DNA from: Candidatus Eisenbergiella stercoravium | GTDB lineage: Bacteria > Bacillota > Clostridia > Lachnospirales > Lachnospiraceae | NCBI GenBank assembly: GCA_019113175.1 | Contig: DXHY01000030.1 | Location: 1 to 64,000, forward strand | Length of the DNA: 64,000 nucleotides | Direction of reading: 5' to 3' | Shown here: piece by piece, positions 5,778-45,739 of the stretch | Layout of the letters: each line of letters starts with the position of its first letter | Numbering within the stretch: position 1 is the stretch's first letter | Made by a program: the position numbers and the translations under genes | The notes under the pieces: model-generated | Database searches by the model: none | Seen by the model: the letters and a program-made list of their open reading frames with translations, nothing else | Told to the model about the DNA's origin: nothing

Positions 5778-5921
5778 TGCCTTTGAAAGAGCGCCGGCGG
5801 ACGCGGCAGAGTAATTTTGGGGAAGAATGGAGCCGGAAGAAGAAGGGGTGCCTCCTGCAAAATATTGATTGAAAACACTAAAAGGTTAAAATAAATCAAT
5901 AAAATTGATTAAATATGCACC

Positions 5922-5951
5922 TTGCACCTGCTCAAAGGGCTGTGTTACAAT
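5922..5951 (+). promoter_or_regulatory. Promoter of the leucine T-box/leuA transcript
   Basis: TTGCAC (5922-5927), an 18-nt spacer and TACAAT (5946-5951) predict a transcript start near 5958, at the 5' edge of the T-box. The 5778-5921 stretch upstream is AT-rich and shows no gene. Confidence 0.65.
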
Positions 5952-5957
5952 CGAAGA

Positions 5958-6280
5958 AATTGAATAAGGGAAAGCGAGGAAGAGGAATAGTAGCCGGACG
6001 TGAGGAAGCAGAGAGCTGCCGGAGGGTGCGAGGCAGCCGGAAGCGGAAGGGGAACTGACCTTGGAGCAGCCTTTCTGAAGGCCGCGGATGCGGCTGCGTA
6101 GGAAAGGACGGAGTTTCCGCCGTAGAAAGGGAAAGGGCATGACAGTGTCTGATTTGAGTGCGGGAAAAGCGGCGCGGAAGGCGCAGCCTGTCCCGAAATA
6201 GAGTGGTACCGCGTGAAGTAAATTTGCGTCTCTATGAAGATTCCGAAAAAGGGGATTTTCACAGAGGCGCTTCTTTTTTT
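5958..6280 (+). ncRNA. T-box riboswitch, leucine type (CUG specifier)
   Basis: Stem I shows the loop-E pair AGTA (5989-5992) and GAA (6052-6054), directly followed by the specifier codon CTG (6055-6057), a leucine codon. The T-box antiterminator sequence GAGTGGTACCGCG is at 6201-6213. The competing terminator pairs GCGTCTCTATGAAGATTCC with GGGGATTTTCACAGAGGCGC and ends in a T-run (6226-6280). Uncharged tRNA-Leu should stabilise the antiterminator and allow transcription of the downstream synthase. Confidence 0.93.
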
Positions 6281-6378
6281 CAAAGGAAGCTCCGATGAGG
6301 GCGGCTCAAAAGACGGGCCGCCGGCAAGTGAATGAAAATCTCCGGTTCGTAAAGAAAAATGCAGGAGGAAAGAATTGT

Positions 6379-8391
6379 ATGGATGCAGCAATCAGCGAAA
6401 AGTATGGAAGATCTTATTTTATGCCGCCGGAGGTAACATATGACTGGGCGAAAAAGGATATTATCGAAAAGCCTCCCATCTGGTGCAGCGTTGACCTGAG
6501 GGACGGAAATCAGGCGTTGATCGAGCCGATGAGTCTGGAGGAGAAACTGGAGTTTTTTCGGATGCTGGTGAAGGTAGGCTTTAAGGAGATCGAGGTGGGA
6601 TTTCCGGCGGCTTCGGAGACGGAATATCGTTTTGTAAGAGAGCTTATTGAGCGGAATATGATTCCTGAGGACGTGACCATTCAGGTGTTGACCCAGGCGA
6701 GGGAGCACATCATCAGGAAGACCTTCGAGGCGGTTCAGGGAGCGCCCCACGCGGTGGTGCATCTGTACAATTCCACGTCTGTGGCGCAGCGGGAACAGGT
6801 TTTTCATAAGAGTAAGGAGGAGGTAAAGCAGCTTGCCGTGGATGGTGCAGAGCTTTTAAAGAAGCTGGCGGAGGAAACGAAGGGAAACTTCACCTTCGAA
6901 TACAGCCCGGAGAGCTTCCCGGGAACGGAGGTGGACTATGCGCTGGAGGTGTGTAATGCGGTGCTGGATGTGTGGCAGCCCACGCCGGAGAGAAAGGCGA
7001 TCATCAACATTCCCACCACAGTGCAGGTCGCAATGCCCCATGTGTTCGCCTGTCAGGTGGAGTATCTGCATAAGCACATGAAGTACCGGGATGCGGTGGT
7101 GCTCAGCGTGCATCCGCATAATGATCGTGGCTGCGGCATCAGCGATGCGGAGTTCGGTGTGCTGGCCGGCGCTGACCGTGTGGAGGGAACGCTGTTCGGA
7201 AACGGGGAACGGACCGGAAATGTGGATATCGTTACGCTCGCCTTAAACATGGTCTGCCACGGCGTGGATCCGGGACTGGATTTCGGCAATATCATGGAGA
7301 TCCGTGAGACCTATGAGCGGCTGACGAGGATGCGGGTGTATGAACGCGCTCCTTATGCGGGAGATCTTGTGTTTACCGCTTTTTCCGGGTCTCATCAGGA
7401 CGCCATTTCCAAAGGGATGGCATGGAGAAAGGAAGGGAAGAGCGGGAAGCGCTGGGAGGTGCCTTATCTTCCTATCGATCCGAAGGATGTGGGAAGAGAG
7501 TACGAGTCGGATGTGATCAGGATCAACAGCCAGTCCGGCAAGGGAGGCATCGCCTTTGTGCTGAAGGAAAACTTTGGAATTTCCCTTCCGGACGGCATGA
7601 AGGAGGAAGTGGGCTATCTGATGAAGGACGTTTCAGACAAACGGCATCAGGAGCTTTCCCCGGTGGATATTTATGATATATTTGAGGAAACCTATATAAC
7701 GCCCCGTTCGGTGTTTGACATTCCGGAATGCCATTTCCGTCAGACGGATGGAATTAGGGCGAGCGTGACCATCGAGCAGCAGGAAAAGGGAAGGAAGGAA
7801 GTCGAGGCACAGGGCAACGGCCGTCTGGACGCGGTAAGCTGTGCGGTAAAGCTCGCTTTTGGCATCAGCTATCAGCTGGCCGTCTATGAGGAGCATGCGG
7901 TTTCCAGAGGTTCCTCATCCAGAGCGGCTGCGTTTGTGGGCGTTCTGTATGAGGGCAGAATGTACTGGGGCGTGGGAATGGATGAGGATATCATCCGCAG
8001 CTCCATCAGCGCGCTGGTTTCTGCCGTCAACCGGCTTCTGGAGGCGGAAGACATCGGCCAGGAGAGAGAGGAACGACTGATCCGGATCATGCAGTACATC
8101 AGGGAAAATTACCGGGATGTGACGCTGGAAGCGCTGGCGGAGCAGTTTCATCTTTCCGGTCCCTATCTCTCCAAGTACATTAAAAACAGAGCGGGTGTGA
8201 CCTTCCAGGAGGCGGTCCGCGCTGTGCGGCTGAAAAAGGCGGCTTCTGCTCTGGTAAAGACGGGGCAGACAGTGGAGGCAGTTGCAGAGAGCGTGGGCTA
8301 TGAGAGCGTGGAGCATTTCAATCGACTGTTTAAGAAGACTTATGGAATGACGCCGGTGCAGTATCGGAACCGGGAGAGTGAAAGAAGATAG
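6379..8391 (+). CDS. leuA: 2-isopropylmalate synthase fused to a C-terminal AraC-type DNA-binding domain
   Basis: One uninterrupted 670-residue frame. Residues 30-330 form the HMGL-like catalytic barrel: DLRDGNQ (39-45), the metal-binding HPHND (245-249) and GNGERTGN (274-281). Residues about 425-555 match the LeuA regulatory domain that binds leucine (VLYEGRMYWGVGMDED, then SALVSAVNR). Residues about 565-665 are a full AraC/XylS double helix-turn-helix with LEALAEQFHLSGPYLSKYIK and the signature VAESVGYESVEHFNRLFKKT. The enzyme condenses acetyl-CoA with 2-oxoisovalerate, the first step of leucine synthesis. The AraC tail is not part of normal LeuA (about 510-560 residues). The start has an AGGAGGAAAG site; expression is under the leucine T-box. 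A role as leucine-sensing regulator is inference. Confidence 0.93.
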   Translation: MDAAISEKYGRSYFMPPEVTYDWAKKDIIEKPPIWCSVDLRDGNQALIEPMSLEEKLEFFRMLVKVGFKEIEVGFPAASETEYRFVRELIERNMIPEDVTIQVLTQAREHIIRKTFEAVQGAPHAVVHLYNSTSVAQREQVFHKSKEEVKQLAVDGAELLKKLAEETKGNFTFEYSPESFPGTEVDYALEVCNAVLDVWQPTPERKAIINIPTTVQVAMPHVFACQVEYLHKHMKYRDAVVLSVHPHNDRGCGISDAEFGVLAGADRVEGTLFGNGERTGNVDIVTLALNMVCHGVDPGLDFGNIMEIRETYERLTRMRVYERAPYAGDLVFTAFSGSHQDAISKGMAWRKEGKSGKRWEVPYLPIDPKDVGREYESDVIRINSQSGKGGIAFVLKENFGISLPDGMKEEVGYLMKDVSDKRHQELSPVDIYDIFEETYITPRSVFDIPECHFRQTDGIRASVTIEQQEKGRKEVEAQGNGRLDAVSCAVKLAFGISYQLAVYEEHAVSRGSSSRAAAFVGVLYEGRMYWGVGMDEDIIRSSISALVSAVNRLLEAEDIGQEREERLIRIMQYIRENYRDVTLEALAEQFHLSGPYLSKYIKNRAGVTFQEAVRAVRLKKAASALVKTGQTVEAVAESVGYESVEHFNRLFKKTYGMTPVQYRNRESERR

Positions 8392-8465: not shown

Positions 8466-9086
8466 ATGTGCAGCAGATATCTGATTGGGGATGGAACCTT
8501 TGAAGTGCTGAAGGAAGGCTTTTTTGAGATACTGGACGAGGAAGGGGAGGATTTTTTTCTCCCTTTCCTCAGCCTGCGCGGGGATATCCGCCCCTCCATG
8601 GCGGCGCCCGTCCTGGTGCGGGAGCCTTCCGGAAGGCTCTGTATGAAGAAGTATGTCTGGGGTTTTCCGGGCGTGGAAGGAAAGGGGCTGATCATCAATG
8701 CCAGATGCGAGACCGTGCTGGAAAAAAGGCTGTTTGCGGAAAGCGTGCAGAACCGGCGCTGCCTGATTCCCGCCGCAGGCTTTTACGAGTGGTCTGAGAA
8801 GAAGGATCCTTATTTTTTCGCGCCAAAGGGGCCGGAAGGAGGAAAGGGAAGGCTTCTTTTGATGGCCGGCTTCCATCGGAAGTGGGAAGGGCAGGAACGG
8901 TTCGTGATTCTGACCACACAGGCCAATGCATCCGTGCACGGGGTCCACTCGAGAATGCCGCTGATTCTGAATATGGAGGAAGCCCGGGAATGGCTGAGGG
9001 AGGACTGTGGGTTTTACGGACTTCTGACAAAGACGCCGGCGGAGCTGATCAGAGAGCCGCTGGGGCAGCTCAGTCTGTTTCTGTAG
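8466..9086 (+). CDS. SRAP-family abasic-site protein (YedK/HMCES-like)
   Basis: The 206-residue protein begins Met-Cys (MCSRY), so Cys2 can become the N-terminal nucleophile that forms a thiazolidine link to abasic sites in single-stranded DNA. Other family residues are visible: NARCET (usually NARSET), GFYEW with the active-site Glu, and HSRMPLIL with the active-site His. It protects abasic sites at replication forks. AGCAGGAGAAAGTG precedes the ATG. It follows leuA by 74 nt on the same strand, so cotranscription is possible. Confidence 0.92.
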   Translation: MCSRYLIGDGTFEVLKEGFFEILDEEGEDFFLPFLSLRGDIRPSMAAPVLVREPSGRLCMKKYVWGFPGVEGKGLIINARCETVLEKRLFAESVQNRRCLIPAAGFYEWSEKKDPYFFAPKGPEGGKGRLLLMAGFHRKWEGQERFVILTTQANASVHGVHSRMPLILNMEEAREWLREDCGFYGLLTKTPAELIREPLGQLSLFL

Positions 9087-9190: not shown

Positions 9191-9256
9191 CATGAAACAA
9201 AGCAAAGCCATATCAGAAATCTTTCTGGTTTCCGATGTGTGAAAGGAGCGGACATT

Positions 9257-9457
9257 ATGTTGACTTTTCTGATAAATAATGCGGGGACAATTGTGACGGC
9301 ACTGATTCTGGCAGTTGTGGTTTTCCTTGTGGTGCGGAGCATGGTCCGTGACAGAAAGGCGGGCAGGGGCGGCTGCGGGGGCAACTGCGGAGCGTGTGGA
9401 GCCTGCAGCGGCGGCTGTGCGGTACCGCCTGTCAACAGGACGAATCGGAACAGATAG
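9257..9457 (+). CDS. FeoB-associated Cys-rich membrane protein
   Basis: A 66-residue protein with one transmembrane helix (about residues 8-28) and a glycine/cysteine tail containing GCGGNCGACGACSGGC. This pattern defines the FeoB_associated family, small proteins usually encoded beside feoB and thought to help Fe(II) handling. Here it is detached from feoAB by about 6 kb and paired with a Fur-like regulator gene. The start at 9257 is preferred to one at 9239 because GAAAGGAG lies 9 nt upstream. Confidence 0.87.
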   Translation: MLTFLINNAGTIVTALILAVVVFLVVRSMVRDRKAGRGGCGGNCGACGACSGGCAVPPVNRTNRNR

Positions 9458-24823: not shown

Positions 24824-24829
24824 AAATGT

Positions 24830-25008
24830 AACCTGAGATGTTCGATAACTCCTGTTGTTTTGAACCTACATTTACTTTAAACGGGACTCCTATATTGCCG
24901 CGTGGATGTCAGGCCCCCATTGCGCAGGGGAAGGCAGAAGCGTCGGTTGCGGTAACCCACCTGGCTGTCAGCTAGGAGTCAGAAGATGGGAGGCGGCATT
25001 TTGGGGAT
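24830..25008 (+). ncRNA. ssrS: 6S RNA
   Basis: The 5' end reads CCTGAGATGTTCG and the 3' end GGCGGCATTTTGGGG, the two conserved ends of 6S RNA; they pair over nine positions. The internal helix GACTCCTA/TAGGAGTC (about 24884-24891 with 24972-24979) and the lower stem with a large open bulge fit the promoter-mimic shape. 6S RNA binds the vegetative RNA polymerase holoenzyme and lowers transcription in stationary phase. It has its own promoter and terminator and ends before the SpoIID-like gene. Confidence 0.93.
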
Positions 25009-25017
25009 ACAAAAGAG

Positions 25018-44875: not shown

Positions 44876-45739
44876 CTATATCTCTTCGGGAGGGAGAAAA
44901 GTGCCGGATTTCTGTTCATGCCCGCCGTCCGGCAGAACGGCGGGAGCTGCCGGGAGCTTATGCGGTACTTCATGGGTACGGCGGAATTCCCCCGGGCTGA
45001 GGCCGGTGCACTGTTTAAACTGACGGCAGAAATGCTCCACATTCCGGTAACCGCAGAATTCGGCTACGGATACAACCGTTTTTTCCGTATATAAAAGCTG
45101 ATCCTTGGCCAGCCGGATCCGGGCACGGATACAGTCGTCCATGCAGGAAAGTCCAAAGGCATTTTTGTAGATGGTCTGCAGATAGCCTTCGGAAAGATGG
45201 AGTTGCTGTGCCATCAGGGAGACGCTCCAGGAAAGCTGTGGACTGTTGTAGACGGATTTGCGCAGAGAAAGCAGCTCCTGAAAGCGTGAATGGGGCTGCT
45301 GCTGCGGAAATTTTTTTCCGACTGCCTCATGCAGCTCAAAAAACAGAAGAGACAGGAGCTGATCGATGATTCTTTCGTTGTCCCTGCCGGGAAAGGAGTT
45401 TTTCCAGGTGAGAAGCTGAAAGAGGTTGTGGCAGTATTCCGCGTCCGGCAGGGGAAAAGGAGTTCCGAACAGGGGAAAAGAGGTGACGGCAGTTTCATCG
45501 GAGTCAAAACGACACCAGTCGTTTGCGTAACGGCTGCCGCAGGCCCGATAGTAGATTGGAGTGTTGGGGGCGAAGAGAACAGCGGAGCCTGCCGGATATT
45601 CCTGCAGCCGGTCAGGCGGGCCGAAAAGTGCAGGCGTGCGGGTGAGAAGAAGCAGCCAGCAGTCATGCCCCTGGGGAACGTCAAAAACAAAGTCCTGCAT
45701 ATGCGCAGCATCGTATTCCACATATCGGATATGATTCAT
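44876..45739 (-). CDS. AraC family transcriptional regulator
   Basis: The 287-residue protein has an N-terminal cupin sensor (AGSAVLFAPNTPIYYRA) and a C-terminal double helix-turn-helix (SLMAQQLHLSEGYLQTIYKN, then VAEFCGYRNVEHFCRQFKQCTGLSPGEF). It probably senses a xylan- or arabinan-derived sugar and activates neighbouring genes. It is convergent with the first GH43 gene and divergent from the second. CGGAGGTACCC precedes the ATG; the much longer frame to 47008 is a shadow of the GH43 gene. Confidence 0.92.
   Translation of the reverse strand: MNHIRYVEYDAAHMQDFVFDVPQGHDCWLLLLTRTPALFGPPDRLQEYPAGSAVLFAPNTPIYYRACGSRYANDWCRFDSDETAVTSFPLFGTPFPLPDAEYCHNLFQLLTWKNSFPGRDNERIIDQLLSLLFFELHEAVGKKFPQQQPHSRFQELLSLRKSVYNSPQLSWSVSLMAQQLHLSEGYLQTIYKNAFGLSCMDDCIRARIRLAKDQLLYTEKTVVSVAEFCGYRNVEHFCRQFKQCTGLSPGEFRRTHEVPHKLPAAPAVLPDGGHEQKSGTFLPPEEI

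Follow-up and report, generated by a model that had tools for sequence, protein, structure and literature searches.

A LeuA–AraC fusion in the Lachnospiraceae as a predicted bifunctional trigger enzyme of leucine biosynthesis

The leuA gene of Candidatus Eisenbergiella stercoravium encodes a 2-isopropylmalate synthase (LeuA) that runs in frame into an AraC-type double helix-turn-helix (HTH). Comparison with related genomes suggests that this protein is very probably a bifunctional trigger enzyme, which would regulate its own gene and, in some relatives, leuC, leuB or ilvB, with the feedback domain of the enzyme as its ligand sensor. The gene is a single uninterrupted open reading frame for 670 amino acids, from an ATG at 6379 to a stop codon that ends at 8391, on the plus strand of the window (the whole stretch of 64,000 nucleotides that was analysed). 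The DNA binding, enzyme activity, leucine dependence and regulatory sign of the fusion are properties that we infer from sequence comparison. The features of the locus are as follows.

5881–5922, plus strand: predicted operator, a 42-bp conserved element (upstream alignment, matrix scans and cross-validation)
5922–5951, plus strand: inferred leuA promoter, with weak −35 TTGCAC at 5922–5927 and extended −10 TGT-TACAAT (consensus of 68 operator-aligned fusion loci)
5968–6236, plus strand: T-box leader, its specifier read from the alignment as CUG (Leu) (RF00230, 85.5 bits, local E 3.5e-19)
6363–6368, plus strand: ribosome-binding site AGGAGG, upstream of the ATG at 6379, rated good (sequence)
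6379–8391, plus strand: leuA-araC fusion gene, 670 amino acids (open reading frame, Pfam, NCBIfam and in-frame homologues)
6478–7308, plus strand: catalytic HMGL-like barrel, residues 34–310 (Pfam, whole-protein E 2.9e-70)
7363–7566, plus strand: IPMS_D2 post-catalytic domain, residues 329–396 (Pfam, E 6.1e-34)
7651–8040, plus strand: LeuA_dimer leucine-feedback domain, residues 425–554 (Pfam, E 4.8e-24)
8071–8385, plus strand: AraC-type double HTH, residues 565–669, seven predicted helices (Pfam and structure model)

The architecture proposed in the initial annotation, a complete LeuA including its feedback domain in frame with a complete AraC double HTH, is borne out, all the Pfam domains exceeding their curated cut-offs. 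Residues 18–552 score as 2-isopropylmalate synthase (NCBIfam PRK03739, 795.7 bits against a cut-off of 455), and both sequence and fold make LeuA of Mycobacterium tuberculosis (1sr9, 3fig) its best PDB relative over this enzyme part. A linker of about 8 residues leads from the feedback domain to the C-terminal region, which matches HTH_18 at residues 586–665 (E 1.5e-22) and HTH_AraC at residues 627–664 (E 3.6e-16). HTH_18 is matched over model positions 1–80 of 80, so that the double HTH is complete, and the best PDB relatives of the C-terminus, by sequence, are AraC-type domains. An AlphaFold2 model (49 sequences, pLDDT 83.6, pTM 0.59) shows seven helices at 565–669 after a short low-confidence linker; it is a monomer model, in which the placement of the domains relative to one another is not reliable. 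By each feature that could be settled, we class the window protein as a LeuA plus a genuine AraC-family DNA-binding domain. Elsewhere in the window, a further AraC-type HTH, one of 77 such matches in the genome, is encoded at 44978–45229 on the minus strand in a 799-codon open frame.

Catalytic residues were checked by the M. tuberculosis LeuA positions R80, D81, N83, E218, H285, H287, E317, H379 and Y410. The corresponding residues of the fusion, R41, D42, N44, E178, H245, H247, E277, H339 and Y363, are invariant in 88/88 fusions. R80, N83, E218 and Y410 are named in PMC10464499. The fusion is presumably a working 2-isopropylmalate synthase. For the leucine pocket of the feedback domain we used 13 M. 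tuberculosis positions, which we assume to form it. The M. tuberculosis residue is found in all 88 fusions at the equivalents of G531, N532, G533, Y554, E556, H557 and A567, in 85 at those of L535 and G562, and in 54 at that of A558; A536 is replaced by Asp and V551 by Leu, each in 87/88, and A565 by Ser in 86/88. The feedback-pocket residue H506 is kept in 88/88 fusions compared with 31/35 genes that encode LeuA only. By these positions the pocket is mostly conserved in the fusions, with some positions unlike M. tuberculosis LeuA. In that enzyme leucine binding, which takes place in the C-terminal domain, closes a loop (PMC11057210).

A frame error near position 8050, raised initially as a possible source of the fusion, is not found: across 88 distinct full-length sequences, that of the window among them, the reading frame continues through the junction. 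These sequences rule out both an assembly or frame artefact and the reading of the two parts as separate genes. Several come from single-contig genomes (e.g. G334, G202, G097 and G352), and dN/dS values are low, so that we regard the probability of an artefact as negligible, even though a frame break at the junction does occur in two relatives. In these two genes, L102 (genome G073) and L140 (G090), which are 2 of the 35 LeuA-only genes, an HTH-coding stretch lies directly 3′ of LeuA in another frame, and this may reflect sequence errors, real breaks or frameshifting. For the other 33 LeuA-only genes, the 1.5 kb that follow, or as much of them as the shorter stretches contain, show no trace of an HTH at E ≤0.01. 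The 35 are hand-picked high-scoring genes and not a random sample. Six loci cut by contig ends (L019, L030, L090, L095, L096 and L109) were dropped before counting, as were identical proteins; the upstream DNA of L038 is too short, so that 88 fusions enter the tree and 87 the upstream counts.

The LeuA plus AraC architecture, whose taxonomic spread the initial annotation had left to database searches, proves to be common among gut bacteria of the Lachnospiraceae, with full-length fusions (matches reaching residue 664 or beyond) in at least 89 of the 397 genomes sampled from the family, our own included. Named relatives are Eisenbergiella, Mediterraneibacter, other Lachnospiraceae and one Eubacterium. 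Among 392 genomes of the order 50 have the fusion, all within Lachnospiraceae; in the class it is found in 13/391, including G933, G799 and G935 from outside the family, and in the phylum in 4/398, one of them outside the class (G1369). These four samples overlap, and a separate E-value limit applied to each. The occurrences outside the family or class could reflect transfer or misplaced contigs. Within the genus, 9 of 13 genomes have a full fusion and a tenth has one cut at a contig start; in G007 and G010 the match to the LeuA orthologue stops at residue 560–561, and G009 has only a paralogous LeuA. This paralog, 52% identical and lacking the HTH, is a second LeuA in our own genome, on a different contig from the fusion (G000, C82:64149–65768, locus L002), with neither operator nor T-box motif ahead of it, and is present in 11 of 12 genus-mates (not in G003). 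Inspection by eye shows a small Cys-rich membrane protein encoded downstream of leuA in the window (9239–9457) and also at the HTH-less loci L100 and L101; the SRAP gene that lies between in the window (8466–9083) was not seen there in L100 or L101.

The HTH is under strong purifying selection and is constrained nearly as tightly as the catalytic domain. Median dN/dS was calculated from all 118 pairs at ≥85% identity, of which 55–105, depending on the domain, gave a usable dS. It is 0.026 in the HTH (55 pairs), 0.021 in the catalytic domain (75), 0.026 in the post-catalytic domain (105), 0.039 in LeuA_dimer (80) and 0.072 in the linker (57). The best-conserved HTH positions include those of the two recognition helices and their surroundings.

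Alignment of the upstream regions of the genus, together with L031 of the family, reveals one strongly kept block 5′ of the T-box in 10 fusions. The block is missing in both HTH-less orthologues of the genus (L100 and L101), in which the T-box is kept, and is present in L013, in which the T-box is absent. The element defined from it across all loci spans 42 bp, holds 38 bits of information and has a consensus of about aTTAAAAtAnATCAAtnaaAAnTGATTAAAttTatCacCTt, with its core TAAAATAAATCAATAAAATTGATTAAA at 5887–5913 in the window. By our reading it contains a direct repeat of ATCA about 22–23 bp apart, with an inverted TGATTAA in between. In five loci (L039, L042, L045, L048 and L053) the right half of the operator lies, by eye, within a long inverted repeat followed by T, which in L039 reads AAGGAAAGTGAT...ATCACTTTCCTT; this repeat may also be the terminator of the preceding gene.

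Scanned with a matrix from all loci over 700 bases upstream, the element reaches 12 bits or more in 78/87 fusions, 2/35 LeuA-only genes and 0/11 paralogs. The same counts are obtained at 10 bits or more under cross-validation, in which matrices were trained on relatives less than 75% identical and 1200 bases upstream were scanned, and a reversed-sequence control gives 2/87, 0/35 and 0/11 respectively. The two positive LeuA-only genes are exactly L102 and L140, both of which have the HTH stretch in another frame. Among the nine negative fusions, five (L040, L060, L063, L121 and L139) have a peak of 0.0–9.7 bits at the expected place, −116 to −150, and one (L084) is cut by a contig end; in L091, L124 and L125, where there is no contig end to blame, the element was not found within 1200 bases upstream. 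The fraction of 36 key HTH positions kept is 0.61 in L124, 0.89 in L091 and 0.97 in L125, and by this measure the key residues of the L124 HTH are decayed.

When shared ancestry is allowed for, the tree provides eight independent pairs, in which HTH and element change on average the same way in 4.7, oppositely in 0 and without difference in 3.3; at most five go one way and none the other (median sign p 0.0625), a number of pairs that does not allow 0.05 to be reached. The element accompanies the HTH and has mostly disappeared where the HTH is missing, which gives strong comparative support to the predicted control of genes by the fusion.

When 68 fusion loci are aligned on the element, their consensus shows it passing into a weak −35, which is followed by an extended −10, TGnTAnnAT; in the window the 42-bp element extends to the −35 inferred for leuA, from which an 18-bp spacer leads to the −10 hexamer TACAAT at 5946–5951. 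A simple consensus promoter scan lists other pairs and not this TTGCAC/TACAAT pair. AraC-family class II activators usually bind at such a position, upstream of the −35 and abutting it. Upstream of leuA in 18/87 fusions there are two copies of the element (≤5 mismatches) 63–77 bp apart, the spacing being 73–75 bp (about 7 turns) in 12, 63–64 bp (about 6 turns) in three, and 68, 70 and 77 bp in one each. All 18 are without a T-box motif, and several are close relatives (e.g. L085–L088). With the upstream DNA reversed, 12/87 loci still contain a match to this loose pattern.

Genome-wide searches used the 27-bp pattern TAAAATANATCAANNAAANTGATTAAA, with up to three mismatches allowed. Our own genome has a single match, at 5887–5913 with 0 mismatches, and 100 shuffles of the window gave none; a matrix scan of its leuC-like loci (L180–L182) and of the paralog locus L002 found no site. 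Because this genome matches the pattern at the leuA promoter only, the fusion there looks like an autoregulator and not a broad leu/ilv regulator. Matches occur in 80 of 98 fusion genomes (18/18 in one set and 62/80 in the other). At two mismatches or fewer, all 65 matches in the 98 fusion genomes stand before leu/ilv genes: leuA in 61, leuC in two (G708 and G710, of one genus), ilvB in one (G202) and leuB in one (G352, where the next frame reads as ilvD). At exactly three mismatches there are 32 further matches in fusion genomes, 19 at leuA, one before leuC (G218), one before ilvN (G054) and 11 adjoining frames not recognised as leu/ilv. Sites away from leuA are few and occur in few genera.

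The leuA matches were assigned by position against the listings of fusion genes. The leuC of G218, leuB and ilvN exceed NCBIfam cut-offs; the ilvB of G202 is cut at the locus end and scores below its cut-off (TIGR00118 acetolactate synthase, 476.6 against 538 bits). The leuC genes of G708 and G710 were named by the resemblance of their translated starts to that of G218, and ilvD likewise by its translated start. A reversed-pattern control gave 6 matches against 20 in the search that covered the set of 18 fusion genomes together with G007 and G010, 11 against 77 in the set of 80, and 5 against 13 in 60 genomes without an in-frame fusion. These 60 together with G007 and G010 contain 13 matches, one at two mismatches, which is leuA of G073 (L102), and 12 at three, one of which is leuA of G090 (L140). 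In G202 the arrangement at ilvB (L178, 1501–1895) repeats that of leuA in the window, an operator copy being followed by a T-box leader (98.8 bits) and then the gene.

In the window, element and promoter are followed by the T-box, which starts at 5968. The leucine T-box that the initial annotation placed upstream of the fusion is present at 5968–6236: in a 551-base search the full length of RF00230 is matched, although the 85.5 bits lie below the gathering score of 93. By structure, TGGTACCGCG box and specifier we regard this region as a T-box-like leader, which by Rfam score is not a member. The sole Rfam match of the window at gathering score is a 6S RNA at 24827–25011 on the plus strand (RF00013, 63.9 bits). 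A simple motif search finds the T-box ahead of 20/87 fusions, 21/35 LeuA-only genes and 1/11 paralogs, and an Rfam check of 14 hand-chosen loci among the 67 motif-negative fusions found a T-box ahead of leuA in 0/14, the one match, in L035, pointing away from leuA. From these counts the fusion and the T-box are partly alternative, with the window having both. The idea that the gene joins two leucine sensors holds, by the motif, for 20/87 fusions and not for the family as a whole.

In a phylogeny of the LeuA portion (88 fusions, 35 LeuA-only genes and 11 paralogs; quick method, LG+G4), all fusions fall inside one starred branch of 104 rows, which also holds 16 LeuA-only genes, and the starred branches require at least eight changes of fusion label. 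A single gain followed by repeated losses of the fusion is the simplest reading, the counts alone being unable to separate gain from loss.

In the mechanism that we propose, the AraC double HTH would bind the predicted element that adjoins the −35 of the leuA promoter on its upstream side and, in some relatives, would also bind ahead of leuC, leuB or ilvB, the leucine-feedback domain standing in for the ligand domain that AraC proteins usually carry. Most likely the leucine-free enzyme would activate leuA transcription from the site abutting the −35, and leucine binding would both inhibit catalysis and withdraw this activation; where a second copy stands 63–77 bp away, looping by the leucine-bound form may add repression. 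The leucine T-box downstream of the promoter would, in the lineage of the window, provide a second check, on tRNA charging. Leucine itself would, on this mechanism, switch DNA binding. We lean slightly towards the fuller reading in which the feedback domain doubles as the AraC ligand domain, so that one leucine-binding event would set both the activity of the enzyme and its synthesis, in some lineages via looping, and in which the circuit would replace the T-box over much of the family while some members keep both.

The regulatory sign is the point on which the evidence is most divided, and we give activation, which we prefer, about an even chance and repression a smaller but considerable one. 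Activation by the leucine-free form is favoured by the way in which the site abuts a weak −35, and repression by the leucine-bound form by the second copies of the element. A repressor with leucine as corepressor, blocking or looping the leuA promoter, would account for the second copies 63–77 bp away in 18/87 fusions, at spacings near whole helical turns; it has a tangible chance of being right, but the main site adjoins a weak −35 that is paired with an extended −10, an activator-like place, the other 69/87 fusions lack such a copy, and the loose pattern recurs in reversed DNA as noted above. Activation and repression are combined in AraC itself, and both can hold together.

Readings that dissociate the HTH from the element fare less well. 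The element might be the site of another regulator, linked to the HTH through shared ancestry only: the fusions cluster on the tree, so that their association with the element is partly inherited (the independent pairs give p 0.0625), and the genome does have 77 further AraC-type HTH matches. We consider this improbable, since HTH-less members nested among the fusions, both of the same-genus ones included, are without the element, since it is retained in both genes in which the HTH is merely out of frame, and since L124, a fusion whose HTH has decayed, does not have it. Still less probable is a role of the HTH in enzyme assembly or localisation and not in transcription: many relatives do manage with LeuA alone, but the recognition-helix positions are highly conserved and a matching DNA element exists.

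The predicted trigger enzyme differs from each of the known systems with which it can be compared. It shares the catalytic barrel, linker domain and LeuA_dimer feedback domain with M. tuberculosis LeuA and PRK03739, but M. tuberculosis LeuA has no HTH, whereas about 110 residues follow the feedback domain in the fusion. With AraC/XylS regulators it has in common a complete HTH_18, seven helices and an element abutting the inferred −35; in those proteins a typical sensor domain precedes the HTH, whereas here it is a biosynthetic enzyme with a feedback domain. PutA and BirA are trigger enzymes that repress the operon of their own pathway through a DNA-binding activity of their own (PMC6978683). 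The fusion would work in a similar way but is built from other parts, and neither PutA, a proline dehydrogenase, nor BirA, a biotin enzyme, joins an AraC domain to a branch-point enzyme of amino-acid biosynthesis. Leucine T-box leaders likewise put leuA under the control of leucine supply and are present together with the fusion in the window; they are, however, RNA sensors of uncharged tRNA and not of free leucine, and the motif is missing ahead of 67/87 fusions. Our searches of the open-licence PMC literature gave no description of a LeuA–AraC fusion.

If the proposal is correct, a single protein chain with one ligand site would unite allosteric feedback inhibition with transcriptional autoregulation. 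How a metabolic switch evolves could then be tested directly, the fusion having probably been gained once and lost several times in nature, with an operator that tracks the domain. For the Lachnospiraceae, the fusion predicts control of leu/ilv genes by leucine, and the family would offer natural cases in which protein and RNA sensing of leucine are stacked on one gene or occur apart.
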